64,000 bases of DNA from a virus, in the IMG/VR virus record IMGVR_UViG_3300026097_000008, positions 62,001-126,000 of that record. One strand, 5' to 3'. The translations under genes and the position numbers were made by a program. Every line of letters starts with the position of its first letter. Position 1 is the stretch's first letter. Below, piece by piece: positions 1,344 to 17,209 of this stretch. The notes under the pieces are model-generated. The model was not told the DNA's origin, did no database searches, and worked only from the letters and a program-made list of their open reading frames with translations.

Positions 1344-3122
1344 GCTTAATCTTTTAACCACGATAGCTCCTACCATAGGAGCATGTGCTGTACACACATA
1401 TCTGTAAGTGCCGCTAAAGGATTCTGGAATTCTCCAATACAGATGTCCTCTGTCAGGATCATGGCTTGCACCGTCTACAACTTGTTCTGTCACATTTCCA
1501 TTATCGCTTACATGAAAAACTCCAGTTGGCAACGGATTGCCTACTGAATCTTGAATTTCTGTAGGATGGCCTGCTGCTTGAGATAAATCAAAACAAATAG
1601 TTGTACCAGATATTGCATATATTGTTGGATTTTGGCCTGAATAATGACTATTGAACTCGTATGCTGTAAATCCTACTGCTGTTGTTCTCAAAGTGACAAT
1701 TGCATGTTCAAATTGACTGTCTATTGTTAATCCTGCTGAATTTGCATCTGTCAAATCTCTAAATCTTTCTGCGCCAGCAACTATATTACTAGAAATAGTG
1801 ATAGTATCTGTCGAAGCGTCTGTTAACATACTAATACCATTACCTGGAACAAAAGTTAATGTATCTGTTGTTGTATCAGCTGATATAGTTGTTTGTGAAG
1901 GAACAGTGTTTACAGCAATATTACTAAATGCATTTTGATTAGCATCTCCGCCACCGCCTCCTGTGGCAGGATCTGCTGGAACCCAATTTGATCCATTCCA
2001 TGCTAAAACTTGATCTGCGGCGGGTGATGCAGTAGTTGTATCTACATCACTTAAAGCATCTATACTAATAGAATTAAGGTCCGAAGCGGTGACTGTATAA
2101 TCCGTTATGTAATTTTGTAAATCACTTATTTGGCTTTCTGTTATAGATAATGCTGATTGATGCTGTATCACACTAGACTGGGTTATATTTGCATCTGGTA
2201 CATTCGCCCAAACCACTGCGGCAGTAAGATCATTAGCTTCTGTTGTTAATGCTCCTATACCTGTAGCAGTAGGCGGGGTAAATTTAAACTCTCCTGTGCT
2301 GTCGTTGTATGATATAGCACCGTTTCCGCTAGGAGTATTTTCAACTCCTATGCTAAAGCTATCAAGAGCAACAACTGAAGGAGTGTTTGATAGGTTGTTG
2401 TAATCTAGATAATATGCACTATCAAACCCGTCAAGTGTATCTGCATCTGTGCCTGCGCCGCCTGTCGTAGCATCAGCACCCGGCGCCCAATTTGATCCAT
2501 TCCATTTTAGAACCTGCCCTGTAGTAGGAGAACTGCTTGTTGTGTCAACGTCTGATAAAAAATCTATAGAGAAAGGTGATAAATTTATAGTGACTTCATC
2601 AGTATCAGTAGCAATACTAGTAGATATATTTGTTCCACCTGAAATAGTTAGAATATCAGTAGCACTGTCTGCAGAAGTTACGCCCTGATCAGCTGTAATA
2701 GTTGCAAATGTATCCTGTGTAGATCCTGTTGCATTTATTGTTAGAGTATTATCAACAATACTAGTAGTGACATTATTGCCACCTGCAACAATTAGAGTAT
2801 CATTAGTTGTTTGTGCTGTCCTTGATCCATTGTCTGCTGAAAAAGTTGAAAATAAATTTTGTGAGCCGCCGCCGGCTTGACCATTAATTGTTAGAATATC
2901 GCCTACTATTTCTGTTGTAATATTATTGCCACCTGCAATAGTTAAACTATCAGCTGCAACATCGGCTACAGTAAACCCAGTATCAGCATTAAATCTTGTA
3001 AAAACATTTACTCCTGCAACAGATTGACTAATATTCCATGCAGATCCGTCCCACTGCCATGTAGTTGTACCGTCTGTAAAAGTATCTCCTATAGTAGGAC
3101 TAGCTGGAAAATTTAATGCCAT
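1335..3122 (-). CDS. Tail-fibre-type virion protein with C-terminal cupredoxin-like domain
   Basis: A 595-residue Ser/Thr/Asn/Gly-rich protein. The N-terminus carries a tail-module motif (FPASPTIGDTFTDGTTTWQWDGSAW). Several degenerate repeats follow, of the type TNDTLIVAGGNNVTTSI, and two copies of LSDVDTTSSSPTTGQVLKWNGSNW-like sequence recur around residues 190 and 350, typical of trimeric beta fibres. The last 130 residues read as a small beta-sandwich ending in YRYVCTAHAPMVGAIVV. That is the Cys-x2-His-x2-Met spacing of a type 1 copper loop, with a possible fourth ligand in AAGHPTE. An AGAGG ribosome site precedes the ATG, and a GGTAAATAC element upstream could be a weak late promoter. Adhesin function is inferred. 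Confidence 0.75.
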   Translation of the reverse strand: MALNFPASPTIGDTFTDGTTTWQWDGSAWNISQSVAGVNVFTRFNADTGFTVADVAADSLTIAGGNNITTEIVGDILTINGQAGGGSQNLFSTFSADNGSRTAQTTNDTLIVAGGNNVTTSIVDNTLTINATGSTQDTFATITADQGVTSADSATDILTISGGTNISTSIATDTDEVTINLSPFSIDFLSDVDTTSSSPTTGQVLKWNGSNWAPGADATTGGAGTDADTLDGFDSAYYLDYNNLSNTPSVVALDSFSIGVENTPSGNGAISYNDSTGEFKFTPPTATGIGALTTEANDLTAAVVWANVPDANITQSSVIQHQSALSITESQISDLQNYITDYTVTASDLNSISIDALSDVDTTTASPAADQVLAWNGSNWVPADPATGGGGGDANQNAFSNIAVNTVPSQTTISADTTTDTLTFVPGNGISMLTDASTDTITISSNIVAGAERFRDLTDANSAGLTIDSQFEHAIVTLRTTAVGFTAYEFNSHYSGQNPTIYAISGTTICFDLSQAAGHPTEIQDSVGNPLPTGVFHVSDNGNVTEQVVDGASHDPDRGHLYWRIPESFSGTYRYVCTAHAPMVGAIVVKRLSLI

Positions 3123-3140
3123 TATAACCTCTCTTTGTAT

Positions 3141-4712
3141 TTACCGTAATCTCAAGTTTATATTTTTTAGTTGACTTGATCCTTGTGTTTGCACAGGTTG
3201 ATCACCATACTTTGAAAATAAAAATTTATTTGGTGCGCCTAATAAGCTTGTTCCGAAAACAGCGTAATCATTATCTAATCCGGTTGTGAACATAGTAGAC
3301 TTTGCATCACTTGTGACACGGTTTTTAATCTGTGTAGGTGTAAAATTTGGATTGACTTGCAAATGTTGTGCTATTACGCCTGCTGCTTGCGGAGCTGCCA
3401 TACTTGTTCCATTAATCATTGCAATTTTAAAATTTGTATCTTGTGGATAATCAATAGTAGAATAAATGCTACTGGTGCTGCATGTGCTTATAATATTAGT
3501 ACCCGGTGCAAATAAGTCTAGTCTAGGACCTCTACTAGTAGAATTTGCTGTTTTATCTTTATACTCACTTCCGTCTAGCTGAGTATCGTCGTCACTGTTG
3601 CCAACAATAAAAGCATCTGAACTGTATGGGCTACTGCCTCTATGATAAAAGTATGTTTGAGCACCGTAAACAACAGTATTATCATAATCGTCGCCGCCAG
3701 GATTATCACCTTTAAATAAGTCATTACCTGCCGCTATACAAACATGTATTCCTGCAGCAATCATATCATCTACTTCTGCATCAACACTTGCAACTCTTGC
3801 AGGTATAAATCTCGAAACACCATCTTGGGGGATTACTAGTCCCGTTGCCTGCCATAATGCAATATCATTTGCATAAGTCACGCCATAAGTCCAATTTGAT
3901 CCTCTATAGGTGCCGCCTGTAGGATCATCTGATCTAACACTTGCAAACCCCCAGCTCATATTTACAACTGTAGGTCTACCATTTGTTTTATTCAAATGCC
4001 AGAGCCTTATTGCATCAAATGCATCCGCAGTCGGTATGCCAGATCCACTATCGCCTGTGCCTTCAAGTCCTGCTAATTTTTGACCATATATATGTGCCCC
4101 TTTAGCCCACCCATATGTAAGTCCTGCTGCAATGCCTGCACAATGCGTCCCGTGGCCATCTGTATCTCTGTCATGATTAATACTTTGGCCGCCTATTAGT
4201 CCACTTGCGCTATACCAATCTATAAGTCTAACTCGTGTATTTCCGTTATAATCATTAAAATCAGGATGATCTACCTGTAAACCACTATCCTGAACTACTA
4301 TATCAACCCCTGTGCCGTCGAGAGCATATGGATATACGCCGCTAGCAACAAGACTATTTCGGTAGATATTAGTTTCTTCTATACAACGTCGTAGACCCCA
4401 ATTTACTTGCTGAGAATTAAGCACAGTAGGCTTGTTAAAATTTGCGTTTTGAAAGGCTCTCTTGCCTATTACAATGTCTGTTCTTTGGTCTACAGGAATT
4501 TCTACACTTAACACTCTGGGATCGTTTTGTAAATCTACAGCTTCTTGATCAGTTAGCATCCAATGTGTCATACGCTTCGAGCCAATTCTAGGATTAGCTA
4601 TATCAACAGTTCGATTAGGGATAGGACCACTACCTGATGAGGCTGACAATTCTGCATCAAACTCTTCTAAGTCTATTCCTTTGTGAACTACTACAACGTA
4701 CTCTTTTTCCAT
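3141..4712 (-). CDS. Subtilisin-like serine protease (S8 family) in the fibre cluster
   Basis: With the ATG in the TAATG overlap as start, the protein has 523 residues; an in-frame ATG 18 bases upstream (4730) is possible. The triad is intact: Asp142 in IVVQDSG, His187 in DGHGTHCAG and Ser437 in NGTSMAAPQAAG, with the oxyanion Asn330 in CIAAGND. About 130 residues precede the catalytic domain and may act as a propeptide or docking domain. No signal peptide is visible, so secretion through a host pathway is unlikely. Its place between two fibre-type genes suggests a virion-borne protease that processes tail proteins or attacks host surface proteins; that role is inference. Family assignment is firm. 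Confidence 0.92.
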   Translation of the reverse strand: MEKEYVVVVHKGIDLEEFDAELSASSGSGPIPNRTVDIANPRIGSKRMTHWMLTDQEAVDLQNDPRVLSVEIPVDQRTDIVIGKRAFQNANFNKPTVLNSQQVNWGLRRCIEETNIYRNSLVASGVYPYALDGTGVDIVVQDSGLQVDHPDFNDYNGNTRVRLIDWYSASGLIGGQSINHDRDTDGHGTHCAGIAAGLTYGWAKGAHIYGQKLAGLEGTGDSGSGIPTADAFDAIRLWHLNKTNGRPTVVNMSWGFASVRSDDPTGGTYRGSNWTYGVTYANDIALWQATGLVIPQDGVSRFIPARVASVDAEVDDMIAAGIHVCIAAGNDLFKGDNPGGDDYDNTVVYGAQTYFYHRGSSPYSSDAFIVGNSDDDTQLDGSEYKDKTANSTSRGPRLDLFAPGTNIISTCSTSSIYSTIDYPQDTNFKIAMINGTSMAAPQAAGVIAQHLQVNPNFTPTQIKNRVTSDAKSTMFTTGLDNDYAVFGTSLLGAPNKFLFSKYGDQPVQTQGSSQLKNINLRLR

Positions 4713-5941
4713 TAGACTAAGCTCGCCCATGCTCCGTTTTCGTAAACTTGTGCTTTGTTTAAAGTGCTATCATAAACCATATCGCCGTTTATCGCTGCAA
4801 GTGCATTTTTTTCTGTAGTTGTAAAGCTAGGCAATCTCAACGGACCGTTTTGGACAATCACACCGTCTGGTGCAGAGAGTGTTAATGTGCTTGCGCTTTG
4901 TATTTCCGGTAATCCAATTCCATTTGAAACAAAATTTGTAGCGTATGCATTATTATCTACAGTAAGATCATTTTCTACTGTTAAATCACTGTTCATCGTC
5001 ACATTTGGAATTATAGATATTCCGCTACTGTCGTCAGTTGTAATTGTTGATGTATTAAATGTAAAATTTCCTACGCTTCCAGATCCGCCGCTAGCATTTG
5101 TAAAGGAAAAATTTCCTGAACCATCTGTTGTTAAAACCTGTCCTGATGTACCATCACTTATGCCTAGGTCTAACAAACTTGTAGGCACAGGGGAACTTGG
5201 TTGCACCCATTGTCCGCTGTCGTCGTCTACCACATATATGTATAATCTCCCATTTGCACTATTATACCATATATTGCCTGCCTCTGGCGAGCTAGGTGCA
5301 GAGTCACTAATGTCAGTACTAGCTCCGCCGGATCCGGATCCAGGATCAGCGGTAGTAATAGTATTTCCCATGTCTAGATGATTTTGGCACCAATAATATA
5401 GTGTAGTCGGTGTCTGGTCTGTGATTGTAATTGCAACACTACGTTGCTCTGCTCTTTCGAACCCGTCCCAGTATCCTTGCTTGGTCACTACTTTATTATC
5501 TAGTTTATATACTACTCTATCAGTGTAAACAGTACCGCCACCAAGTTCCCCGTTAACATTATCTGAACTAAAATTTAAAGGATGTTGATTATTTGTAGTA
5601 CCAACGGCATTAGGATACCATACATTAGTTGAATCATTTTGATTAAAAATGTAGGTATAACCTATAACAAAACTTAGTGCTGGATTGTTTTCATCATTTA
5701 GGATGTATTTGTTGCCGGCACCGGTATCATTAATTACAACATTATAAGTTTTGGTTGCTATACCCGATAGGCTATTATTAGTAAGAACTTCAAAACCGCC
5801 AGCTAACTTACCACTATAAAGTCTTAAACTACTTGTTTCTGAATCAAAGAATACTTCACCACTAGATCCAACATTTCTATCAAGAAAATCATTTGGTCTT
5901 GGAATTATTCTTATTCTATCTACTATAGGTGCTGATGACAT
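4712..5941 (-). CDS. Virion structural protein with cupredoxin-like domain and C-terminal fibre module
   Basis: About 409 residues, counted from the ATG at 5941, which has a GAGG site at good spacing; an upstream ATG at 5953 is the alternative. Residues 1-60 have the module FFDSETSSLRLYSGKLAGGF. Residues about 65-200 form a beta-sandwich whose last strands read TLYYWCQNHLDMGN, a Cys-x2-His-x2-Met copper-loop pattern with NNQHPLNF upstream as possible first His. The C-terminus ends in a degenerate copy of the shared RP...NTD...W module (KNALAAINGDMVYDSTLNK followed by ENGAWASLV). It overlaps the protease start by one base and is preceded by a late promoter. It is probably part of the adhesion apparatus. 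Confidence 0.75.
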   Translation of the reverse strand: MSSAPIVDRIRIIPRPNDFLDRNVGSSGEVFFDSETSSLRLYSGKLAGGFEVLTNNSLSGIATKTYNVVINDTGAGNKYILNDENNPALSFVIGYTYIFNQNDSTNVWYPNAVGTTNNQHPLNFSSDNVNGELGGGTVYTDRVVYKLDNKVVTKQGYWDGFERAEQRSVAITITDQTPTTLYYWCQNHLDMGNTITTADPGSGSGGASTDISDSAPSSPEAGNIWYNSANGRLYIYVVDDDSGQWVQPSSPVPTSLLDLGISDGTSGQVLTTDGSGNFSFTNASGGSGSVGNFTFNTSTITTDDSSGISIIPNVTMNSDLTVENDLTVDNNAYATNFVSNGIGLPEIQSASTLTLSAPDGVIVQNGPLRLPSFTTTEKNALAAINGDMVYDSTLNKAQVYENGAWASLV

Positions 5942-5966
5942 CTTTATCCTCATTTATATTGCTACT

Positions 5967-5976
5967 GTATTTATTC
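5967..5976 (-). promoter_or_regulatory. T4-type late promoter
   Basis: The minus strand reads GAATAAATAC about 25 bases before the ATG at 5941. The ATAAATA core is the gp55-dependent late -10 element of T4-like phages, and the same element recurs before several structural operons here. It separates the late structural genes from the accessory operon upstream. Confidence 0.7.
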
Positions 5977-5990
5977 AATGCTATAGCATT
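5977..5990. repeat. Perfect 14-base palindrome next to the late promoter
   Basis: AATGCTATAGCATT is a perfect inverted repeat directly abutting the late promoter, between the end of the halogenase operon and the structural genes. It lacks a following T-run, so it is not a standard terminator. It could be a protein-binding operator or chance; nothing else in the 30-base gap supports a choice. Confidence 0.35.
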
Positions 5991-6008
5991 ATATTTTTGA
6001 GATAAATC

Positions 6009-6419
6009 TTAAAAGAGTAATGTTTTGTCTGATATCTCTTGAATTTTATCGTTTTTTAACACAAATTTAGTTATGTCATCTAGATGAATATGATAAGGAG
6101 TATTATCTGGAACACTAACAAATGGAACATGGTGATATGTTTGCACTGTTTCGCCTAACCAGTCCTCTTCTATAACTGGAATTTTCATAACATCTTCGTT
6201 GAATCCTTTTGTAGTTCCAATTACAAATTTTTCTTTCCCGTCATCTTCGTCTATATAAAAAATTATTACTTCGTTTTCTTTTAACAAAGCACGTATCCAG
6301 TTTCTTAATGTTTCACGATCTTTTTGGCTTTTGTAAAGGGCTGTGGCGTCGCCTTCTTTAACTTTTCTTTTCTTCACTGTATAGGTCACAAGCTCATGTG
6401 TCCGTAATTCTTCAATCAT
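6009..6419 (-). CDS. Unknown protein, last gene of the halogenase operon
   Basis: A 136-residue charged protein that I do not recognise. The middle (NEVIIFYIDEDDGKEKFVIGTTKGF) alternates hydrophobic and polar residues like a small beta-barrel; the N-terminal half is basic (YTVKKRKVKEGD). No catalytic motif, signal peptide or membrane segment is visible. A strong GGAGG site precedes the ATG, lying within the stop region of the upstream gene, so it belongs to the accessory operon by position. It could equally be a phage regulatory protein that happens to end the operon. Confidence 0.65.
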   Translation of the reverse strand: MIEELRTHELVTYTVKKRKVKEGDATALYKSQKDRETLRNWIRALLKENEVIIFYIDEDDGKEKFVIGTTKGFNEDVMKIPVIEEDWLGETVQTYHHVPFVSVPDNTPYHIHLDDITKFVLKNDKIQEISDKTLLF

Positions 6420-6421
6420 GC

Positions 6422-7156
6422 TTATCCTCCAAAATGTTTGTAATACAAATCTTGTATTATATTTCTTTTAAACGTAAAATTTGCACTTCTAAAATATTTC
6501 TTTTTGTCTAACCAAAATTTGTCTAAACTATTCATTTCTCTGCATACTATATCATAATCTTTTTCAGATAATGGAATTATATGAGCCAATGGTGTGCCTG
6601 CTTTAATCAACACGTCGCCTTTTTGAACATTGTAATATAATTGAATATTTATTTCATTACTATACCCAGGATTGAGAATACCGATAGAACTTTCAAATTC
6701 AAAATTATCTGGATATGCAATAGGCAACATTAATAATTTTACACCTCTAGGTGCAACAACGTGCCATGGTGTATTTATTTTTACAAATGTATTAAGACTC
6801 CACGGCTTAATAGGCATTTCTGTGCCGACTCCGTTAGATTGATTTTCTACAATGTTAACTTCCGGTGTCAAACTGGCGAGATCTGACGAAGGCACAGTCC
6901 ATGTAAACTCGTCTGGATTGCCGTTGGTGCTTATAATAACATCATGCCACATTGGCACAACAAATCCGTGCTTAAATAAATCGAATATACCAGGACACTG
7001 ATATATATGACTCATTGACCCTAAAGTTCTATTCTTTTTCTTTACATAGGAATCTCTAGCTATTTTTGTCCAAGCTGGCATCGCATCCTTTGCTTTTACA
7101 ATAGGATATAAATCTGGAAGTCCCGGAACAGTCGAATAAAATTCTATTTTTTTCAT
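6422..7156 (-). CDS. Unknown 244-residue protein of the halogenase operon
   Basis: Not recognised by family. Sequence features are an N-terminal FYSTVPGLPDLYPIVKAKDAMPAW, a Trp/Pro-rich centre (KINTPWHVVAPRG) and a C-terminal part reading GDVLIKAGTPLAHIIPL. The last segment has the rhythm of a beta-roll like that of dCTP deaminase/dUTPase relatives, with no active-site residues to confirm it. It starts inside the upstream oxygenase gene (ATGA overlap), so it is translationally coupled to the oxygenase and halogenase. A role as accessory factor or substrate carrier for that pathway is speculation. Confidence 0.7.
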   Translation of the reverse strand: MKKIEFYSTVPGLPDLYPIVKAKDAMPAWTKIARDSYVKKKNRTLGSMSHIYQCPGIFDLFKHGFVVPMWHDVIISTNGNPDEFTWTVPSSDLASLTPEVNIVENQSNGVGTEMPIKPWSLNTFVKINTPWHVVAPRGVKLLMLPIAYPDNFEFESSIGILNPGYSNEINIQLYYNVQKGDVLIKAGTPLAHIIPLSEKDYDIVCREMNSLDKFWLDKKKYFRSANFTFKRNIIQDLYYKHFGG

Positions 7157-7725
7157 ATTATCACATCATACGCTATATTAATTCGTTCTATATCTGAATT
7201 GTTGTATTCAACTTCGTGTGGTAGCCAAGAAGGCCATAAAACAAGATCTCTATCTTGTGGCAAATAATTGAAATCTCTAGTGTACGGCGAAGCATTACAA
7301 CAGTCCCCTAAAATATTAGCAGGATTGATTATACGTAAAGATCCTGTACCAGTACCTTGGATATAGTATACTCCTGAAAAAATTGCAGATTTGTGTGAAT
7401 GCATTGCATTCCTTGATTGGGGTTGATTGATGTTTGTCCAATAGTTTATTTTTAAATTATGTTTGCCTAAAGTTTCCATCTCTTGTGCAAAGAAATGATC
7501 TTTTTCGCTGTATAACTCAATAGCACGAAAGCATTTATCAGTAATTGCTTTGAGAAGCCAATCTACGTTTTTATACACATGTCCTGATCTCCAACAGCCG
7601 TCATTGCTCCTTGGTGCGCCTGGTTCGTGTCTGATTTCAGAAATTTGTTTTAGTAAGTCTTTAATTTCGTTGTCAGTTCCGATATTAGGTGTTGCATCTA
7701 AATGAGCTTCAAATAACGAAATCAT
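7153..7725 (-). CDS. 2OG-Fe(II) oxygenase-like protein, operon copy 1
   Basis: 190 residues from the ATG that overlaps the halogenase stop (ATGA); an in-frame ATG 12 bases upstream is less likely. The C-terminal half carries the double-stranded beta-helix signature of phage 2-oxoglutarate/Fe(II) oxygenases: NAMHSHKSAIFSGVYYIQ (metal His109 or His111), LVLWPSWLPHEV (His170) and RINIAYDVI (Arg181 for 2-oxoglutarate). The family hydroxylates, desaturates or otherwise oxidises small molecules or peptides in the cytoplasm. The C-terminal layout closely matches the oxygenase at 9236-9832, suggesting paralogy. The substrate is unknown; context suggests the halogenase substrate or product. Confidence 0.8.
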   Translation of the reverse strand: MISLFEAHLDATPNIGTDNEIKDLLKQISEIRHEPGAPRSNDGCWRSGHVYKNVDWLLKAITDKCFRAIELYSEKDHFFAQEMETLGKHNLKINYWTNINQPQSRNAMHSHKSAIFSGVYYIQGTGTGSLRIINPANILGDCCNASPYTRDFNYLPQDRDLVLWPSWLPHEVEYNNSDIERINIAYDVII

Positions 7726-9233
7726 GTGTTGTACCAATCTGTTAAGTAATCGTAATGGTTTTCGAACATACCTTCGGCAAGATCGAGGCGTTTTCTATGG
7801 CATTCTAAAAAATATTCAGCATATTGTTTTTCTTTTTCAGATAACGGTGATTCGACATCCTTATATGCACCGCCTGCATGCAATACACACCACCATTGTA
7901 CTACATTAAACATTGAATTAGGTGCAATATTAAAGAATCTTTTTGGCACTGGCAAGAATAATTCTAGTATTTCTCTTGCTCTTTCTGGTAAATTTTCTAA
8001 AGATTGCGTTCTAAAAGATTTCCAAAAATCTGTATCTTCTTTTGTTGAAAAATAATAATGAGCCCATACAAATGCTAGAATCTCGTTTGACATAAAATCA
8101 AAATTGTTGTTTATAGCATATTTTTGTTGTTCGCCCCATATATTACCACTAGTATTCAAGACTCCTGCAATGTCTGATACAACACTAGTTGTAAATGTTA
8201 TACCTGTAGCTTCTAAAGGTTCTACAAATCCTGCACTTAATCCTACTGCGCAGACATTTTTTACAGCAATTTCTTTATGATATCCGCATTTCATTTTTAA
8301 ATGTCTTGCGGGAGCAACAAACTCTCCAATTTTTTGTCTCAATTCTTGTTCAGCACTTTCTGCATCAATAAATTTAGAAGAATATACATAACCATTACCG
8401 ATACTTTTGTATGTAGGAATCGTGAACATCCAACCCGAATCCATAGCTGTAGCTTTGGTATACGGATGACATTCTTTTTGTGGATTAGTAAACTGAGTCC
8501 TAATAACAACAGCATTATCGTTGGGCAAATACTTTGTATAATCTATAAAAGGTACTTTTAGTTTTTGTTCTAACAATATACTTGCAAATCCTGTGCAGTC
8601 TATGAATAAATCAGACTGGTAAGTATTTGCATCTTCATCAATTAACGAATCTATACCTTCTTGATTTACTTTAACATCTGTAATTTTAGTATCAATATAT
8701 GTTATTTTGTCTGCTATTAAATGCTTTATAGTTTTTATAATATCGTACGCACCAAAATGCACTGCGCCAAAATCTGATGGTCCCATTCTATGATTTACAT
8801 CTAAATAACTGTCAAATTTCTGACATATATTCTTTTTTGCTAGCCTATAAGCAGGATGCCAATCTGCAAATTCACTATATGGCTTGTCTATAAAATAGTC
8901 ACTTGTGTAAAAGTTATGTGCTATGATGCCATTATCTTGATTATCATTGTCAACAAAGTAAGATTCATTATTCCATCCAATAAGCTCTACTCCGTACTTA
9001 AATGATGCATTACTATCTTTCATCCACATATGTGGGGGTATACCACATTCGCTTAAAAATTTTGTTGTGAAAGGCTGTGTCCCTTCGCCTACACCGATAG
9101 GACCTTGTTCTGAATCTTCGATTAAAACAATTTCTGTTGGTATTTTCAAGTTTTTTATAAGATATGCTGCTGTAAGCCATCCGCTTGTTCCGCCGCCAAA
9201 AATTGTAATTTTTTTAATTTTTTTTAGATACAT
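7722..9233 (-). CDS. Flavin-dependent halogenase, tryptophan-halogenase family
   Basis: A 503-residue protein of the usual length. It has the FAD-binding GGGTSGW (13-19) and GVGEGT (47-52), catalytic Lys79 in SFKYGVELIGW at the same number as in PrnA, and Glu340 in PLEATGI matching the PrnA catalytic Glu. The diagnostic WxWxIP motif is present as WMFTIP (267-272), so the second Trp is Phe, and the Ser after the catalytic Glu is Ala. These enzymes make hypohalous acid from FADH2, O2 and halide and pass it to Lys. A cyanophage relative, VirX1, is known to halogenate diverse small aromatics with a preference for iodide. It needs reduced flavin, and no reductase is seen here. Coupled by overlap to the oxygenase downstream. 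Confidence 0.92.
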   Translation of the reverse strand: MYLKKIKKITIFGGGTSGWLTAAYLIKNLKIPTEIVLIEDSEQGPIGVGEGTQPFTTKFLSECGIPPHMWMKDSNASFKYGVELIGWNNESYFVDNDNQDNGIIAHNFYTSDYFIDKPYSEFADWHPAYRLAKKNICQKFDSYLDVNHRMGPSDFGAVHFGAYDIIKTIKHLIADKITYIDTKITDVKVNQEGIDSLIDEDANTYQSDLFIDCTGFASILLEQKLKVPFIDYTKYLPNDNAVVIRTQFTNPQKECHPYTKATAMDSGWMFTIPTYKSIGNGYVYSSKFIDAESAEQELRQKIGEFVAPARHLKMKCGYHKEIAVKNVCAVGLSAGFVEPLEATGITFTTSVVSDIAGVLNTSGNIWGEQQKYAINNNFDFMSNEILAFVWAHYYFSTKEDTDFWKSFRTQSLENLPERAREILELFLPVPKRFFNIAPNSMFNVVQWWCVLHAGGAYKDVESPLSEKEKQYAEYFLECHRKRLDLAEGMFENHYDYLTDWYNT

Positions 9234-9235
9234 AA

Positions 9236-9832
9236 TTAGTCCTTAAAATCAAAATAAATGTTAAACGCTAAAGATATTCTTGTGTCATTGCTTTTATTAG
9301 GCAATACTTTATGCAATAACCAACTAGGAAATAACAATATCATTTCATCTAAAGGTTCTACAGTAAGTAAGTTGCTGTACTTATTTGAATGATGTGGAAA
9401 GCTAGCTACAAAAGGATTAGTGCTCTTAAATTGTATATCTCCACTATTTTTCGGTGCTCTATAATAATAGCAACCACTGAACATATTTGGCTGATAACCA
9501 TGTTCATGTAGTCCAATTACCTGATCTTTTGTAAAGGTATTCAACCATGAACCTAAAATATATGTGCTAGTCTTTTTGTATGGATAAGTCAACTGGTCTA
9601 AATATTTTCCTGCATGATTAATAATTTTAGTTTCAATTATTTTCATATCGAACTCTTTTATTATATCTGTAGAATTCTCATGACTAAAAGTTGTGTTTGC
9701 CGTGTCGTTATCCGGCTGCCAATCATTCTTAAATACTGCATGAGACATTGCATGTATAAATTCTCTATCTATGCTGTCACTAGTCTCTATTTTACCCATA
9801 TATATAGGAGTACTAAAAAAATTTTCTATCAT
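9236..9832 (-). CDS. 2OG-Fe(II) oxygenase-like protein, operon copy 2
   Basis: 198 residues from the ATG that overlaps the stop of the fusion gene upstream (ATGA). Motifs: IGLHEHGYQPNMFSGCYYY (His109/His111), MILLFPSWLLHKVLP (His174) and RISLAFN (Arg185), which are the metal and 2-oxoglutarate ligands of the phage oxygenase family. The N-terminus (MIENFFSTPIYMGKIE) is typical of that family. It lies 2 bases upstream of the halogenase start. The two oxygenases flank the halogenase, which points to a multi-step oxidation of one substrate. The substrate cannot be inferred from sequence. Confidence 0.82.
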   Translation of the reverse strand: MIENFFSTPIYMGKIETSDSIDREFIHAMSHAVFKNDWQPDNDTANTTFSHENSTDIIKEFDMKIIETKIINHAGKYLDQLTYPYKKTSTYILGSWLNTFTKDQVIGLHEHGYQPNMFSGCYYYRAPKNSGDIQFKSTNPFVASFPHHSNKYSNLLTVEPLDEMILLFPSWLLHKVLPNKSNDTRISLAFNIYFDFKD

Positions 9833-11496
9833 TTTCGTATCACAACTACATATAATCCGTTCCACCACTCGTTTTTATTTTCTTCTGAGTTGAGGAGCAT
9901 TTTTTCGTATACAGCAATTCCGTTTGAATTGTTTATACCCTGTCTAGCACCATCTACAACACCCTGCCAGTTTGCATCATCAAAAACTAGTATAGCTTCA
10001 TTTGCAAGTGCAGGCCAATAGTGTTCAACTGCTTTAGCCACACTAGTTTCATCGTGAGGACCATCATAAAAGAACATTTTGATGCTGTTTTGCGCAGGAG
10101 ACACATCAACACTAAATAAATCTTGGTTGAGTACGACTACATTAGAGTCGCCTCTGTGTTTTTCTAAATTTTTAAAAAATACATTAATATCGTTATCTTC
10201 AGCAACTTCACCGTTTTGCGATGCTATTCCTTCACTCCAATGATCTATTGCTACAGCTTGAATAGGATTATCTTTCAGTACCGCACATAGTGTTGCACCT
10301 AAATAAGTTCCAACTTCCATATAAGTATCTACACCCTGAGCGAGAGTATTTAAAAGTGTTTGTACTCTCGGTGATGTTAATCCCGGAATATCTAAATTTA
10401 TAGTAGGTATACCCGAATTAGCAATACACTCTGCTGCGTGTTTTACTAATTCGCTATGTTGTATTTTTGATTTTACTTCGTATATTTTGTCACAGTACTG
10501 GCATTCCCAACAATCAAACTTACAATTTTTAATTTTTTCTCGCCATACGTTAATTGGCTTTTCTACTAAATTTGTTTCTTGTAAATAAGGTGCAAAATTA
10601 TCGTTAAGAAGAGTTTCGTTTCTATCCCATTTACGAATTATTTCCATTGTTTCGTATAGTCTACTAATTGCTTCTCTTCCATGCATTTTAAACACATCTA
10701 TTCCAAGATCATTTAAAAATTCCTCCCAGTCCTCTTTCCACGGAGGTAAATCAGCATTTTTTAAATGCACTGCCGGGTCTTGTACGTCCCATTTAGGACA
10801 GCTGACTCTGCTAATAGGATCATTAAAATATTGCGGACTACTTCCTTCTCTAGTGTTATTAAATTCAAAGTGCTCTACCATCATTGGACAGTTGCCAAGA
10901 CATCCTTCATTTGCAAGTAAACTAATGTGTATTTCTTTGCCTAAATTTTCTTTTACCCATTCTTTAGCAGTTTTAATTCGTAGCAAAGTGTCTCTGTCTC
11001 GCATTAGATCTCTATCTAAATTTATGTAGTCGAAACCGGCTTTGGCAAGATTTACAATCTCTGCGGCGGTTCGTACTTCTCTTAAGATTGTATTTTTTAC
11101 TTTTAGTTTAGGAAATGCTTTTTGTATTTGCCCTGTAGCCATCCAGTGTGTATGAGGAACAGTAGCAGTATGTACTCCGGCATCATATAATGGTTTAAAA
11201 TGATATATAAAAGTGTCTAAGTTTTTTTGAGTAGGAGGTACTTGAATATTGTTAAAAGTTGCACTTAAAGGAATACCCGTATAATGCTGTATTTGTAAAG
11301 CTGCATCTATAGCATACTTATAGTCTTCTTCGTAAACAAAAGTATCTCCCATTGCGTCTTGGCTAAAGGGAGGTATACGGCTTGTGAAATATATATCATA
11401 AATTAGATGTTTATACTCTACAACAAATTTTATAAAATCCTGATATTGATCTGGACTAAGTTTCGGATTTAATGGAATACTAAAGATTTTTTTCAT
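9829..11496 (-). CDS. Fusion of a U32-peptidase-like Fe-S TIM-barrel domain and a SAM methyltransferase
   Basis: 555 residues in two parts. Residues 1 to about 350 look like the U32 'peptidase' family (YhbU/UbiU/UbiV/RlhA type), now known as Fe-S proteins in hydroxylation reactions: barrel-like repeats such as AGVHTATVPHTHW and AGFDYINLDRDL, then ANEGCLGNCP (Cys199, Cys203), SCPKW (Cys233) and a second group NCKFDCWECQYC (325-335). Residues about 375-555 are a class I methyltransferase: YMEVGTYLGATL (SAM motif I), AIDHW, FYDGPHDE and ILVFDDANW. It is the first gene after the sigma70-type promoter. I know no characterised protein with this fusion. The function may be oxygen-independent hydroxylation plus methylation, which is inference. 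Confidence 0.78.
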   Translation of the reverse strand: MKKIFSIPLNPKLSPDQYQDFIKFVVEYKHLIYDIYFTSRIPPFSQDAMGDTFVYEEDYKYAIDAALQIQHYTGIPLSATFNNIQVPPTQKNLDTFIYHFKPLYDAGVHTATVPHTHWMATGQIQKAFPKLKVKNTILREVRTAAEIVNLAKAGFDYINLDRDLMRDRDTLLRIKTAKEWVKENLGKEIHISLLANEGCLGNCPMMVEHFEFNNTREGSSPQYFNDPISRVSCPKWDVQDPAVHLKNADLPPWKEDWEEFLNDLGIDVFKMHGREAISRLYETMEIIRKWDRNETLLNDNFAPYLQETNLVEKPINVWREKIKNCKFDCWECQYCDKIYEVKSKIQHSELVKHAAECIANSGIPTINLDIPGLTSPRVQTLLNTLAQGVDTYMEVGTYLGATLCAVLKDNPIQAVAIDHWSEGIASQNGEVAEDNDINVFFKNLEKHRGDSNVVVLNQDLFSVDVSPAQNSIKMFFYDGPHDETSVAKAVEHYWPALANEAILVFDDANWQGVVDGARQGINNSNGIAVYEKMLLNSEENKNEWWNGLYVVVIRK

Positions 11497-11522
11497 AATT
11501 TTACTTTTCGGTAGTTTCTATT

Positions 11523-11551
11523 AGTATAACGGATTATTTTAAAAAAAGCAA
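11523..11551 (-). promoter_or_regulatory. Sigma70-type promoter of the halogenase operon
   Basis: The minus strand has TTGCTT, a 17-base spacer and TATACT, ending about 27 bases before the fusion gene ATG. The match is four of six bases at -35 and five of six at -10. The flanks are AT-rich and no late-promoter element is present, so early or middle expression is likely. Confidence 0.55.
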
Positions 11552-11566
11552 GAGTTTTTTAAATAA

Positions 11567-12088
11567 TTACTTTTCATTTCCTGGCCATTTTATATTGAAC
11601 TCAGGTTCCCTAGGCGTTTTGTTCATAGCCGGCGATGCCGTGACTTTGTAATAGTTATGCAAAATAAGTTCACATTCTTCTTTGGTAGAACATGCTTCAA
11701 CTTTTTGAAGTAATTTTTTTAGGATCTTTTTATCGGTAAGATTTTCATTTGCATACAATCTCATTGCTGATTTTATCAACACTGTGACGTTTTCTTTATC
11801 TTTATCAGTTAGTCTATAAACATATTTTTCCCACTCTACATCGCCAGAAGCTGTCACAATGTCTTCTGCTTTACTTACTGGCTCAGTTACACTAACTACA
11901 TCTCTGTATGCATTTGTTAACACAGCAGATTTAGCAACTTCTTCAGATAATTCAATATAATTTATCCAATCAATATATGCACCGTCTGGAATATAACGCA
12001 TAGTAAAGTGCCAATAATCGCCTACTACTTTACTGCCTTTAGGTATTCTAGGATCATTATCAGCTATCGTCGGATGTATTATATACAT
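11567..12088 (-). CDS. Unknown 173-residue protein
   Basis: I do not recognise the family. The protein starts MYIIHPTIADNDPRIPKG and contains a mid-section rich in charged helices (LTDKDKENVTVLIKSAMRL, KKILKKLLQKVEAC). There is no signal peptide or membrane segment. Its start lies 29 bases inside the end of the upstream gene in another frame, with AAGGA about 10 bases before the ATG, so the two are probably co-translated. The position at the downstream end of the fibre operon suggests a virion or assembly role, but nothing in the sequence shows it. Confidence 0.65.
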   Translation of the reverse strand: MYIIHPTIADNDPRIPKGSKVVGDYWHFTMRYIPDGAYIDWINYIELSEEVAKSAVLTNAYRDVVSVTEPVSKAEDIVTASGDVEWEKYVYRLTDKDKENVTVLIKSAMRLYANENLTDKKILKKLLQKVEACSTKEECELILHNYYKVTASPAMNKTPREPEFNIKWPGNEK

Positions 12089-12950
12089 TTAATATATTTC
12101 CTTGATCTACAGCCGATGCACTAGGAGCATTTACTGATAACTTCAATTCTGCATCGGAATCCTCTGTTGGCGGCTTTGTTAAAAATGCTGTATCTGCATT
12201 ACTATCTAACGCTAGTTTTTCGTCAATATTAGCTTGTATATTTTTTTGTATATGTTGCAGTTGCGTACCATAATTCATTGCTAGAGATAATGTTTCTGTT
12301 TGCTGGGTAGGAGACATACTAAGTATAGCATCCATATTTCCTGTGCCGACCCTTCCGTAAAACAACAAATCGGTAGCAGCTTGTTTAGCAAGTCTGTTAG
12401 TCCAATATTCTGCTTCGTAATAATCCTCTGCGTCAGTATCCATAATATCCATATATGTTCGGCCAGAACCATCTGGCAATAATGCTTCGTCTGAATTTAA
12501 AAATTCTTGTATTAAATCTAAAATTTGTTGTCTTTCTAGATACCAATTAAGCAACCGTCTTCTTGTTAATACTTGAGTACGGTTAAGCTCTTTTGCTTCT
12601 AGTAAATGCTCTCTACGATCAAAATCGTCAATTGCATTTTGTGCTTGATGCTCGTGTCTTTCAATCTGAATTTGCCATTTTTCAATATCATATTCTAATT
12701 TTCCAATAGCTTCTTCCCTTGATTTTAATTCAAGCAACCATTGACGCAGTTTGCTAAAGGGAGTGATTTGAGTTTCCCCTACAAACCAACGCATTTTATA
12801 TTTTGGATTTGCCCACTCTTTATTTTGCGAATAATCCAAAAGTGCTACTTCTTTTTCCGATAGTTGCGAAACATCGCTTAGAAGTTCGCTTTTATGTACT
12901 TCTGTTTCTTTAGCAAATTGTGACAGTCTGTCAGGCATATTAGATTCCAT
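12060..12950 (-). CDS. Unknown helical protein, probable assembly or structural factor
   Basis: 296 residues from the ATG at 12950, chosen because AAAGGAGA lies 7 bases upstream; an ATG at 12971 lacks such a site. Residues about 70-180 are strongly heptad-like and rich in Glu, Arg and Leu (KLEYDIEKWQIQIERHEHQ, RREHLLEAKELNRTQVLTRRRL), predicting a long coiled coil. The C-terminus is disordered and acidic (TEDSDAELKLSVNA). Not recognised by family. Preceded by a late-type promoter element, so it is probably a late protein such as a fibre chaperone or minor virion protein; that is inference. Confidence 0.65.
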   Translation of the reverse strand: MESNMPDRLSQFAKETEVHKSELLSDVSQLSEKEVALLDYSQNKEWANPKYKMRWFVGETQITPFSKLRQWLLELKSREEAIGKLEYDIEKWQIQIERHEHQAQNAIDDFDRREHLLEAKELNRTQVLTRRRLLNWYLERQQILDLIQEFLNSDEALLPDGSGRTYMDIMDTDAEDYYEAEYWTNRLAKQAATDLLFYGRVGTGNMDAILSMSPTQQTETLSLAMNYGTQLQHIQKNIQANIDEKLALDSNADTAFLTKPPTEDSDAELKLSVNAPSASAVDQGNILNVYNTSDDS

Positions 12951-12977
12951 GTTGTCTCCTTTAAAAAACATACATTA

Positions 12978-12984
12978 TATTTAT
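12978..12984 (-). promoter_or_regulatory. Probable late promoter
   Basis: The minus strand reads TTAATAAATATAATG, containing ATAAATA, about 30 bases before the ATG at 12950. It lies in the gap after the fibre gene upstream and matches the late-promoter core, though without the trailing C common at other sites in this window. Confidence 0.5.
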
Positions 12985-13026
12985 TAATTGAAAATTTATG
13001 ATTATATTATATTGGCAGAAAGAGTA

Positions 13027-14079
13027 TCAATCTCTCCAAGAACATACACCAGAACTAGCTCCTGGTTTCCCTTTTGGCTCCATTGAACTACCGCCTCTAA
13101 AGCCGCTTTCAGATACGTAATTCCATCTGTGTGAAATATTATTTTGCTGTCCGTTATACATACCAATCATATATTGATGATCTTGGCCCATGGTATAGTT
13201 TTCTTCGCCTGAGTCCCCTACAGGTTTAGATACAGTGCCAGAAGTTGTATTTGTTGTCCAATTAGTTCGACGATAATTGTTGCCGCCTCTGTATGTTCCT
13301 TCATTGCCAGCCCAAGCGTATTGTCCTTTGGAATTTACAGCTTTTTGTTGGTGATGATTGGCTGGATCAGTTCCGCCTCTGTTCGAAGCTGTTCTAGTAG
13401 AAAAGTTAAATGTAATACCATTATTTCCTTCGTACATTATGCCATACGTTTCGGTGCTCATACCCCATGTAGTACCACTGTACATAGTTGCACCGATAGT
13501 ACCTGTAAGTGTTTTGGTTGTCAAATTATATTCTTCAACAAGTGTATTTTCACCATTTAGCCAGGTTTCATAATGTTCTCTAAAAACGCCTCCATAATTG
13601 TGTCTCGATAGTGCCAAATTGCGATCAATGTCAGTAGCTTGTGTTTCAGTTCTCATGTTAAATGCAATTGTATAATTTGAACTAACTGAATGTCCACCTC
13701 CAGCACCAAAAACATATGCGTAATCTTTAGAACATGCTCCCCACTGATAGTTAAATGCAGCTTCGATTGCTCCGTCACCTAGGTTATAAGTGGTATCAGT
13801 GGCGGTGATTGTTCTATTGAGATTGTTCCAAGCTACACTGCTTTGGTAGCCGCCTTGCATATAACCATTATTTATAATTGTTCTAGTAAGAAAAGGTATG
13901 GTCATTTCAGACCATCCTGCACTAGTAGTGTACGTGCCGTCTTGATAATATTCGACTACACTATTATCTGTATTGTAGCGTATTCTGCCAGCATCATTAC
14001 CTGGACGCTGGGCTGTTGTACCTTTGGGTAATCTTAAATAGTCAGTGCCGTTAATAGTAGTGTTTTTTAATGTTGCCAT
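13027..14079 (-). CDS. Fibre-type structural protein, tandem copy A
   Basis: 350 residues. The first 60 carry the shared fibre module (LPKGTTAQRPGNDAGRIRYN followed by EYYQDG and W). The rest is a Trp/Tyr/Asn/Gly-rich domain with repeated short strands such as YAYVFGAGGGHSVSS, TWGMSTETYGIMY, YAWAGNEGTYRGG and YMIGMYNGQQNN. These suggest a beta-propeller-like receptor-binding head of about 290 residues. The neighbour at 14089-15138 is a close paralogue over this whole domain and shares the same C-terminus (GVC-x-WRD). Recent tandem duplication is likely, possibly giving two host specificities. Adhesin function is inferred. Confidence 0.75.
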   Translation of the reverse strand: MATLKNTTINGTDYLRLPKGTTAQRPGNDAGRIRYNTDNSVVEYYQDGTYTTSAGWSEMTIPFLTRTIINNGYMQGGYQSSVAWNNLNRTITATDTTYNLGDGAIEAAFNYQWGACSKDYAYVFGAGGGHSVSSNYTIAFNMRTETQATDIDRNLALSRHNYGGVFREHYETWLNGENTLVEEYNLTTKTLTGTIGATMYSGTTWGMSTETYGIMYEGNNGITFNFSTRTASNRGGTDPANHHQQKAVNSKGQYAWAGNEGTYRGGNNYRRTNWTTNTTSGTVSKPVGDSGEENYTMGQDHQYMIGMYNGQQNNISHRWNYVSESGFRGGSSMEPKGKPGASSGVCSWRD

Positions 14080-14088
14080 ATTATTATC

Positions 14089-15138
14089 CTAATCTCTCCA
14101 AGCACATACACCAGAACTTGAACCTGCTTTGCCTTTTGGCTCCATTGTAGAGCTACCTTGGAATCCGCTTTCTGTAGCATAATTCCAACGCCAAGATCTG
14201 TTGTTTTGTTGCCCATTATATTGTCCAAGCATATACTGGTGATCTTGTCCCATGGTAAAGTTTTCCTCGCCACAGTTGCCGTCTGGTTTTGCTACTGTAC
14301 CTGAGTCAGTTGTATTTGTTGACCAATTGGTTCTGCGGAAGTTTGATCCGCCACTATAACTTCCTTCGTTGCCTGCCCATGCATACGTACCTTTTGAGTT
14401 TACAGACTTTTGCTGATCGTGATTGGAAGGTGTAGTTCCGCCACGACTGGATTTTGTTTCAGTAGCAAATACAAATGTTTCTGCTGTATTTGCAGCGTAA
14501 AATAGCGCATAGTCCTCGTGGCTCATGCCCCATGTTGAACCTGACCTATAATTTTGTCCTATATTTCCGCTGCTTGTTTTAGTCACTAAATTGTATTTGT
14601 TAATATTACTATCACTATCTCCCGACATCCAAGTTTCGTAGTGTTCTCTAAAAATGCCACCGAATCTCCATCTGTTACTTGGCAGACTTCTATCTATGTC
14701 TGTCATTTGCTGTTCAGTACGCATGTTGTAAGCAATAGTATAGTTAGAACTAACCGCATGGCCGCCGCCTGCACCAAACACATATGAATAGTCTTTAGAA
14801 CATGCTCCCCATTGATAGTTGAATGCTGACTCAATTGCAGAGTCGCCTAAGTTTGTAGTTGTGTCAGTAGCAGCAATAGTTTTATTCAAATTATTCCACG
14901 CTGCACTACTTTTATACCCGCCTTGCATGAATGCTGTTGTTATAATTGTTCGAAAAGGAAATACGAGAGAACTTAATTCCCAAGCAACACCATTCCAATA
15001 CTCTAATTTACCACTGTCACTGTTGACCCTCATGCCTGCTATATTATCGGCATTTTCTGCTGGACGCTCGGCATCATTACCTACCGGCAATCTTAAAAAT
15101 CCTGTATCGTCTATTTCTGTATTTTTTAAAGTTGCCAT
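14089..15138 (-). CDS. Fibre-type structural protein, tandem copy B
   Basis: 349 residues, paralogous to the downstream gene across its length. It shares FNYQWGACSKDYSYVFGAGG, the central TWGMSHEDYALFY, YAWAGNEGSYSGG and the C-terminal GVCAWRD. Differences cluster in loop-like segments, for example PSNRWRFGGIF against ALSRHNYGGVF. The N-terminal module is a divergent form with three extra residues (ERPAENADNIAGMRVNSDSG). The start overlaps the upstream stop by one base (TAATG). The loops that vary between copies are the natural candidates for ligand contact. Role inferred as receptor binding. Confidence 0.75.
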   Translation of the reverse strand: MATLKNTEIDDTGFLRLPVGNDAERPAENADNIAGMRVNSDSGKLEYWNGVAWELSSLVFPFRTIITTAFMQGGYKSSAAWNNLNKTIAATDTTTNLGDSAIESAFNYQWGACSKDYSYVFGAGGGHAVSSNYTIAYNMRTEQQMTDIDRSLPSNRWRFGGIFREHYETWMSGDSDSNINKYNLVTKTSSGNIGQNYRSGSTWGMSHEDYALFYAANTAETFVFATETKSSRGGTTPSNHDQQKSVNSKGTYAWAGNEGSYSGGSNFRRTNWSTNTTDSGTVAKPDGNCGEENFTMGQDHQYMLGQYNGQQNNRSWRWNYATESGFQGSSTMEPKGKAGSSSGVCAWRD

Positions 15139-15971
15139 TAGAACCCTCCTCTTGCTAAAAGGGCTGATGATAGTCCCCTAATTTCATTTTCATTAAGAAC
15201 TCTGTCCCACGCAGCAAGGAACTGCCATTTCCAATCGCTTGGTTCACTTGTATTACTAGTGTGTGCTCCGACTCGTAAATTTGTTGGACCGTTAGATCCG
15301 CCTGTTGACTGCGCTCTCATAGTACCGTTCTTCCAATATTGCCATTCGTCTACACTTAAACCGCCTTCAAAATTAGTTCTACCTGTTCCTGTGTGTACAC
15401 CCCATTGATTATTACCTGCGCCTCCACCGCTTGAACTACTTTGAATTACCCAACCTTCTGCAAAGTATCTCACATCGCCATCGCTCCAGTGGCCTAACAA
15501 CCAGTTGTTTCCGCCTGGACCTGTAGTAGTAATTCTTCCTCTAGTGCCGCCGTTGTATCCACATAGTGTCATAACAGTGTATGGCTCACTGCTCATGTCT
15601 ACAGCAAAATCAATTCTGCCTGCACTTTGTCCACCAGTAAGGTATTTTGAACCTGTTCCTGAAGTTTGTTCTGTTACAGTTCCTGAAATTGTCACAGTTC
15701 TGTTGTTGCCGCTAATGTCTGTGAGTGTACTGCCGTCCCAGCTATCTGGATTGCCTACATCACACAACAACTGTAATCCTCTCATAGGTATACCGTCTTT
15801 GTTAGTTTCGGCATTTATCCAAAAACCCATCCAATAAAATTCAACATAACCCAAATCAGTATTAAATCTCATATCGCCATTTACTGGACTGGATGGTCTT
15901 TGAGCTGTAGTGCCTCTTGGCAGATATACAGATCCTGTATCATTAATTGTAGTGTCCAGTAGCGTAGCCAT
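15138..15971 (-). CDS. Fibre-type protein with LamG-like lectin domain
   Basis: 277 residues. The shared fibre module is at 15-50 (LPRGTTAQRPSSPVNGDMRF). From about residue 60 there is a concanavalin A/LamG-like domain: LLCDVGNPDSWDG...TDISGNNRTVT near its start, a strand-rich middle and the typical ending WKWQFLAAWDRVLNENEI. LamG domains bind glycans or proteins at surfaces, so this is probably an adhesin or fibre tip. It is coupled by TAATG overlaps on both sides. No signal peptide, as expected for a cytoplasmically assembled virion protein. Confidence 0.75.
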   Translation of the reverse strand: MATLLDTTINDTGSVYLPRGTTAQRPSSPVNGDMRFNTDLGYVEFYWMGFWINAETNKDGIPMRGLQLLCDVGNPDSWDGSTLTDISGNNRTVTISGTVTEQTSGTGSKYLTGGQSAGRIDFAVDMSSEPYTVMTLCGYNGGTRGRITTTGPGGNNWLLGHWSDGDVRYFAEGWVIQSSSSGGGAGNNQWGVHTGTGRTNFEGGLSVDEWQYWKNGTMRAQSTGGSNGPTNLRVGAHTSNTSEPSDWKWQFLAAWDRVLNENEIRGLSSALLARGGF

Positions 15972-16858
15972 TAATAACCTCTGCTTTTAAGTCTATTTAC
16001 TTCGGATGATAATTCTTTCACTGCTTCGATTAGATAAGCACTTAGTTTTGTATAGTTTATTCCTTTTGGATTTCCGTCACTGTCTTTGGATACAAGATTA
16101 GGAAGGATTTCGTTTACCGTTTCAGCAATTAATCCTGCTTCATTCTTTGTTGAGCCGTCTTTTCTATCGTAAGTGACTCCGTCAAGTTTTGTTATAATGT
16201 CTAGTGCATCGATGATAGGATTTACATTTTCTTTTAGTGTGATACTTGAATCCTCTACAATTGTAGTTGCAGTCATAGTAGTAAATTGTCCGGTATTTCT
16301 TGTTGTGCTACCAATTGGAGTATTGTTAATTGATCCGCCTGTAATAGGAACTCCAGAAAGACCTCCTGATAAAGTTAGCGATACAGCACTTAATACATTA
16401 CAGGATAAAGTACCAGTGCTAGGTTGATATGTTAATTTCGAACTGCTAACATTCAGTCCTGCAATAGATCCGCTAGTTGAATCTGTGAATGACGGGTAAT
16501 AAGTACTCGAATCAGCATTTTGATCGCTTACTGTGATTCCGCTTGTTATAAAAGATAAGTTTCCATTTCCATCAGTCGACAATACAGAGCCAGCGCCTCC
16601 ATCAGCAGCAGGAAAGGTTAAAGTATAATCTGCACTTACAGTTCCAGGTGCTTGCAGTGTTACAAAATTACTGGCGTTGTCACTTAAAAGCAACCCGTTA
16701 TTATTTGCAATTTGTAAGTCATTAGAGGAAACTGTCACACCCGAACCGCTAGGATTAAAATTAATGTTTTCGTTAGGCTGTGACTGGAAAGTATTATCAA
16801 CGGACGCCAAAGTTCCTAATATTGGTCCACCTACGATTCCTGTTGTAATTTTACGCAT
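15971..16858 (-). CDS. Fibre protein with C-terminal S74 intramolecular chaperone
   Basis: 295 residues. The first 200 are Ser/Thr/Asn-rich beta-fibre sequence. The last 90 are a clear peptidase S74 (endosialidase-type) intramolecular chaperone: SSITLKENVNPIIDALDIIT, the Asp-Gly VTYDRKDG, NEAGLIAETVNEILPNLV and LSAYLIEAVKELSSEVNRLK. In this family the domain trimerises the fibre and then cuts itself off at a Ser near its N-terminal end; the candidate is the Ser in EDSSITLKENV. AAGGA precedes the ATG. Being a separate short gene, it could act as the foot of a longer fibre or as a stand-alone trimeric spike. Confidence 0.85.
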   Translation of the reverse strand: MRKITTGIVGGPILGTLASVDNTFQSQPNENINFNPSGSGVTVSSNDLQIANNNGLLLSDNASNFVTLQAPGTVSADYTLTFPAADGGAGSVLSTDGNGNLSFITSGITVSDQNADSSTYYPSFTDSTSGSIAGLNVSSSKLTYQPSTGTLSCNVLSAVSLTLSGGLSGVPITGGSINNTPIGSTTRNTGQFTTMTATTIVEDSSITLKENVNPIIDALDIITKLDGVTYDRKDGSTKNEAGLIAETVNEILPNLVSKDSDGNPKGINYTKLSAYLIEAVKELSSEVNRLKSRGY

Positions 16859-16867
16859 TTGTTTTCC

Positions 16868-17188: not shown

Positions 17189-17209
17189 TTTATTTCCTCT
17201 CCGGTAGCT

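Follow-up and report, generated by a model that had tools for sequence, protein, structure and literature searches.

Viral halogenases are usually discussed as auxiliary metabolic genes, and we know of no natural substrate for VirX1 or for any of the others; the U32 family, to which a second enzyme treated below is related by predicted fold, holds proteins such as UbiU/UbiV, RlhA and TrhP. Here we describe a stretch of viral DNA of 64,000 nucleotides (the window; positions 62,001 to 126,000 of the IMG/VR record IMGVR_UViG_3300026097_000008, 154,976 bp), in which a predicted flavin-dependent halogenase (D) belongs to a set of six minus-strand genes, named F to A in their order along that strand, together with two predicted 2-oxoglutarate (2OG)-Fe(II) oxygenases (E and C), a U32-like barrel fused to a methyltransferase (F) and two further proteins (B and A). 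VirX1 is trimeric, and its active site is large and open (PMC8407142). For the 2OG oxygenases of phages, roles in modulating 2OG or in repair have been put forward earlier (PMC3037559, PMC2984593). The reading that we favor, and to which we give about even chances, is that the set is a cassette for posttranslational modification of the virion, whose enzymes would add hydroxyl groups, halogen and possibly methyl groups to the tail-fiber proteins of this very phage. No description of a fiber-linked halogenase-oxygenase cassette was found in the open-access literature, subscription papers lying outside the search.

We observe that the set lies inside the tail-fiber module, that F is constantly linked to one fiber family and that the cassette is conserved with its active-site residues intact. 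A search with F as query gave 80 contigs, and fiber linkage was counted for each F with at least 5 kb upstream: a gene of the fiber-like family phrog_1417 (FIB) stands upstream of F in 56/56 of these F-selected loci, at a median gap of 1.5 kb. Cyanophages show the neighborhood T4-GC 351-352-353-354 next to their fiber genes, with T4-GC 354 being F. The preliminary description of this DNA had held the set to be separable from the surrounding virion genes, which is not supported, given the FIB linkage and the position of the block between fiber genes in this clade.

The co-occurrence of these gene families in relatives, which the preliminary description had named as a check of a coupled pathway, is found in the phage's own clade, where F is upstream of D in all 63 loci with room for it, and a 2OG oxygenase and B are downstream of D in 64/75 and 65/75 loci, respectively. 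Tens of contigs, with identities as low as about 55%, keep the order F-(E)-D-C-B-A. When B is the query (69 loci), an oxygenase is nearby in 66 and a halogenase upstream in 48, and 21 of the 69 loci lack a halogenase but carry F, B and, in nearly all cases, an oxygenase. The core therefore appears to be F-oxygenase-B, and the halogenase, placed at the heart of the set by the earlier account, is not its constant part. Only two changes in halogenase presence are needed on the F tree, and in the main clade the gene is retained inside the F-to-B block by 39/39 members, indicating an optional gene that is rarely gained and then faithfully kept. What survives of the earlier account is a coupled, conserved, multienzyme tailoring set with a promoter of its own.

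A similar arrangement surrounds VirX1 itself, which is gp42 of phage Syn9 (full-length match to the solved VirX1 at 1271 bits). The Syn9 order is fiber genes, a second halogenase, gp42, the B homologue gp43 and 2OG oxygenases; the first of the two halogenases is a VirX1 paralogue. The order seen around VirX1 recurs in S-RIM44, P-TIM40, S-CREM1, Sf-FR1 and Sf-CH3, and in distant cyanophages B directly follows the halogenase without F. Viral halogenases generally adjoin 2OG oxygenases: among 61 distant viral halogenase loci, an oxygenase lies within 3 kb in 16 of the 22 that have both flanks, with an oxygenase density of 0.25 per kb near distant halogenases versus 0.010 per kb in F-only loci, and 111 downstream neighbors of distant viral halogenases include 36 matches to PF13759 and 31 to PF13640, with overlaps possible. 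One such neighbor matches PF22814 (WelO5, E = 1.5e-4), a possible Fe/2OG-type halogenase beside a flavin halogenase. It is common for a locus to contain two halogenases, either in tandem or separated by a few genes (five loci). More tentatively, and as something we would not bet on, viral halogenases at large, VirX1 included, could be parts of modular enzyme cassettes that halogenate and hydroxylate the phages' own receptor-binding fibers and vary between phages as fibers do.

All six open reading frames, with ATGA overlaps at the F/E, D/C and C/B junctions and 2-nucleotide gaps at E/D and B/A, are present as the preliminary description had them (Table 1), with C starting at the ATG at 7725 and not at the mechanical TTG at 7737, and E at the ATG at 9832 and not at the GTG at 9868. 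Against the two closest contigs, the proportion of nonsynonymous differences (pN) is 0.10 to 0.24 for all six, with synonymous sites near saturation, indicating that all are constrained genes under strong purifying selection.

The identities first given to the oxygenases and the halogenase are confirmed by profile matches. D, predicted to be a flavin-dependent halogenase from its profile match and intact catalytic residues, matches PF04820 with 304 bits (E = 2.3e-90, cutoff 21). Across 34 aligned phage halogenases the glycines of its flavin adenine dinucleotide (FAD) motif GGGTSG (positions 13 to 18) and the catalytic lysine K79 are invariant, and the glutamate E341 is conserved in at least 90%; the WxWxIP region reads GWMFTIP in D and WRWTIP or WRFTIP in relatives. 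D also matches tryptophan (Trp) halogenases such as PrnA and RebH, with most alignments stopping at residue 406 to 466 of 503, so that specificity for free Trp is unreadable from the C terminus. C and E match PF13759 with 62.6 and 66.6 bits (E = 5e-17 and 3e-18, cutoff 27), and among 108 homologues the metal-ligand-like H109 and H111 and a third histidine (H170 in C, H174 in E) are invariant, with an arginine conserved in 87%.

For F, the U32-like/methyltransferase fusion originally proposed is supported by the predicted structure (predicted local distance difference test [pLDDT] score, 84), a U32-like barrel joined to a methyltransferase, by 7 Cys residues invariant in 36 homologues and by a C-terminal match to PF13578 (Methyltransf_24); no Pfam U32 model matches F at E values up to 0.1. 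The barrel aligns with the U32 peptidase Mk0906 (5d88) in Foldseek (E = 2e-6, template modeling [TM] score of 0.61 on the target), and F matches phrog_1458 with E = 9e-176. An Fe-S cluster is probable, the Cys spacing not being matched to a solved cluster.

Of the two proteins that had been left as unknowns, B now belongs to phrog_7084 (E = 2e-37) with a predicted beta-clip structure like that of dUTPase and dCTP deaminase (pLDDT, 92), and A remains without a family match in profile searches; Pfam, NCBIfam and PDB sequence searches with B and A gave nothing useful. The best PDB fold matches of B are dUTPases and dCTP deaminases (E = 5e-4, query TM scores of 0.3 to 0.4, core only), and B holds a motif-III-like GILDP..S.E.N and AGTPL, with the remaining dUTPase motifs not recognized by eye; we do not class B as a dUTPase and assign it a predicted dUTPase-like beta-clip fold. 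B was seen only in viruses here, a degenerate-peptide scan of bacterial genomes, which is a limited test, having found none. Many relatives (seven loci) have a second, diverged B paralogue beside A, and in some (five loci) A and B swap places. A weak B homologue (23% identity, E = 1e-5) occurs in the haloarchaeal phage HF1 (L116:6001-6660), opposite tail genes and without a halogenase.

Table 1. Features of the gene set and its surroundings (window positions)
Feature	Position	Strand	Description
Fiber paralogue (FIB family)	14089-15138	minus	phrog_1417; C terminus ..SSGVCAWRD; candidate substrate
FIB	13027-14079	minus	Fiber-like, phrog_1417, T4-GC 351 "sericin-like"; C terminus ..SSGVCSWRD; candidate substrate
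Tail-module gene	12060-12971	minus	phrog_1409; NATAAATA element 14 nt upstream
173-aa gene	11567-12088	minus	Between fiber genes and F
Putative sigma70-type promoter	11523-11551 (11551-11523 read 5'-3')	minus	TTGCTT-N17-TATACT, before F; position conserved in halogenase-bearing relatives
F	9829-11496	minus	555 aa; predicted U32-like barrel fused to class I S-adenosylmethionine (SAM) methyltransferase; T4-GC 354 / phrog_1458
E	9236-9832	minus	Predicted 2OG-Fe(II) oxygenase, PF13759/TIGR02466; ATG start at 9832
D	7722-9233	minus	Predicted flavin-dependent halogenase, 503 aa; K79 and E341 conserved
C	7153-7725	minus	Predicted 2OG-Fe(II) oxygenase, PF13759; ATG start at 7725
B	6422-7156	minus	phrog_7084, 244 aa; predicted beta-clip (dUTPase/dCTP deaminase-like) fold
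A	6009-6419	minus	136 aa; no family match; position at end of set conserved
Late promoter element	5968-5975	minus	AATAAATA; 22 nt before tail gene 4712-5953
Tail gene after set	4712-5953	minus	Baseplate wedge/tail fiber matches

The sigma70-type site before F agrees with the consensus at only 8/12 positions, and such sites are no commoner than in shuffles (58 found versus 57.8 expected). Significant sites of this type precede F in 20/37 distinct halogenase-bearing loci, often as TTGACA-17-TATACT or TATAATAAGTA, and in 0/24 comparison loci, nearly all of which have F without a halogenase. The putative promoter, noted from the start and weak alone, is thus unremarkable by consensus scan and rescued by the comparative evidence from relatives. 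The late promoter that had been placed after the set also holds: ATAAATA elements occur in 30 copies in the genome, 21 genes are preceded by one at no more than 100 nt from the start (mostly 13 to 38 nt), and these include the tail gene after the set, preceded by AATAAATA at 5975-5968, as well as the tail-module gene 12060-12971. Late read-through into F from the NATAAATA element before the latter is possible; transcription of the set could then start at its own promoter as well as arrive from the late one upstream, which leaves a strict separation unproven. One subclade (L028-L037) has its -10 element inside an arm of a strong, T-tract-bearing hairpin; folding of the two complete elements gave predicted energies of -15.8 to -18.2 kcal/mol. 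In five of its loci the arm is the 5' one, the hairpin is nearly perfect and the T-tract comes after it, as if a terminator of the tail transcript and the cassette promoter formed one element. No RNA family from Rfam was found in window positions 3000-17500.

If the fibers are the substrate, C and E would hydroxylate side chains of the freshly made upstream fiber proteins (FIB, 13027-15138), D, fed FADH2 by a host reductase, would halogenate the side chain of an aromatic residue in these proteins, and F might contribute further hydroxylation or methylation through its Fe-S U32-like barrel and methyltransferase domain. B may bind the substrate or assemble the enzymes, probably as a trimer like its fold relatives, and halogenation would be an option added to the F-oxygenase-B core. 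Under the sigma70 promoter, the enzymes could build up before or alongside their late-expressed substrates, and the benefit could be a changed adhesion, stability or host range of the fiber tip.

Among the targets that the preliminary description had allowed (a small molecule, a host peptide or a virion peptide), the evidence favors the virion. We favor fiber modification because of the linkage to one fiber family, the location in the tail module, the lack of scaffold enzymes, the coupling of halogenase and hydroxylases across phages and the precedent of SrpI, a flavin brominase of ribosomally synthesized and posttranslationally modified peptides (RiPPs) that acts on a large peptide substrate (PMC10858898). 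The intact catalytic residues, the purifying selection, the open active site of VirX1 and the SAM synthetase encoded by the phage also speak for fiber modification. Several observations weigh against it. We infer it mainly from gene position, which is a circumstantial argument, and T4-like marine phages are known to have a hotspot of metabolic genes within their structural-gene region (PMC2984593). The halogenases of S-PM2, P-SSM2, S-MbCM6 and Sf-CH11 stand apart from fibers, near nrdAB, tRNA or psbA genes, so not all phage halogenases are of this kind. No flavin reductase of PF01613 was found in the 155-kb record, which may be incomplete and in which other reductase families were not searched; FADH2 would accordingly have to come from the host or from an unrecognized enzyme. 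Finally, the tandem fiber paralogues (13027-14079 and 14089-15138) have a common C terminus, PKG..G.SSG.C.WRD, and this Trp motif ends 32/41 non-redundant fibers of halogenase phages versus 3/17 others (P = 5e-5), yet as a candidate halogenation site the Trp was rejected, as it does not track the halogenase: with the two changes on the F tree, independent pairs give no direction, and a terminal Trp is also found in phages that have F-oxygenase-B but lack the halogenase.

The fiber Trp tends to be present when B is in the cassette and absent when it is not; in about 4 of 6 independent pairs the C-terminal Trp follows B, with almost none against (P = 0.125), which is a lead and not a result.

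The alternative that survives best, unlikely as we consider it, is a small-molecule pathway in which a halogenated metabolite is made or destroyed, for example from Trp or an aromatic host compound, with antibiotic or signaling effects. Halogenases of D's family do act on free Trp and natural products, as the PrnA and RebH matches recall, and a phage PrnA has been proposed to give antibiotic protection (PMC2984593, PMC9964418). However, neither the set nor the neighboring loci examined hold a scaffold enzyme (nonribosomal peptide synthetase, polyketide synthase, amine oxidase or decarboxylase) such as stands beside the tailoring enzymes of a natural-product cluster, most Trp-halogenase alignments of D end early, and the constant linkage to fiber genes would be left unexplained.

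Quite unlikely, in our view, is that a hyperplastic insertion region has gathered unconnected auxiliary metabolic genes, among them 2OG oxygenases that tune 2OG or repair DNA and a halogenase that acts separately. Such regions are known in T4-like cyanophages (PMC2984593) and 2OG modulation has been proposed (PMC3037559). The conserved gene order with its translational overlaps argues against this reading, as does the recurrence of the coupling in distant phages, the VirX1 phage included. Modification of a host protein (ribosome, RNA polymerase or surface receptor) for takeover or for exclusion of other phages strikes us as improbable: hydroxylation of ribosomal proteins by 2OG oxygenases is known from both prokaryotes and eukaryotes (PMC4396695) and an early-type promoter would suit takeover, whereas the position in the late tail module and the fixed linkage to FIB do not, and the widely varying number of oxygenases (up to 8 to 9 in S-CREM1) suits variable fibers better than one host target. 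That the oxygenases, F and B modify fibers while the halogenase drifted in and does something else is very improbable, since the loci lacking a halogenase and its two changes on the F tree, which would fit, stand against its retention throughout the main clade and its direct coupling to B where F is missing.

The phage is T4-like in a wide sense and not a typical cyanophage, as judged from the terminase, which is 54% identical to that of PA5oct-type jumbo Pseudomonas phages and serves as taxonomic marker here, the tail-tube protein being weakly informative. Its own genome also encodes, outside the window, a SAM synthetase (L094:4913-6001), a DAHP/KDO-type synthase (L094:4095-4934) and a CMP-sugar cytidylyltransferase (L094:2858-3541), with carbamoyltransferase and asparagine-synthase-like genes elsewhere, amounting to a large sugar and methyl donor module. 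Inside the tail-fiber region, a subtilisin-like S8 protease gene (phrog_9158, window 3141-4730) adjoins the cassette in many relatives.

The context of fibers, halogenase, B and 2OG oxygenase points to a concrete substrate, the fiber proteins of phages that are already cultured. If this is true, the chemistry of phage adhesins would have a new layer, made up of residues that carry halogen or hydroxyl groups, and there would be a role for the many 2OG oxygenases of marine phages that are so far unexplained.

With respect to described systems, D has the FAD box and the catalytic Lys and Glu in common with PrnA, RebH and PyrH and differs from them in the second W of the motif, which is F in D, in alignments that mostly end before the C terminus and in the lack of genes for Trp-derived natural products here. 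SrpI is a precedent for a flavin halogenase that works on a large peptide, as proposed for D, although its substrate is a leader-guided natural-product precursor and no precursor-like gene was identified here. F is like the U32 proteins, represented by the Mk0906 structure, in its predicted barrel fold, and also has invariant Cys, whereas it lies below Pfam detection and is fused to a methyltransferase. A full-length homologue of F (43 to 48% identity) is T4-GC 354 / phrog_1458 of Kyanoviridae and relatives (Syn19, P-HM2, S-RIM12 and S-ShM2), which is annotated only as a hypothetical protein and stands behind the fiber-module genes T4-GC 351-353 as F stands behind fibers; unlike at F, neither a halogenase nor B is directly downstream in the loci examined. 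The closest match in arrangement is VirX1 with its tandem paralogue (Syn10 and Syn9; PDB 6qgm): VirX1 is only about 27 to 30% identical to D, no F gene is present in its block, and its phages infect Synechococcus, whereas the terminase of this phage is closest to that of PA5oct-type jumbo phages, yet in both cases a flavin halogenase stands behind the fibers, with a B-family gene and 2OG oxygenases coming after it.

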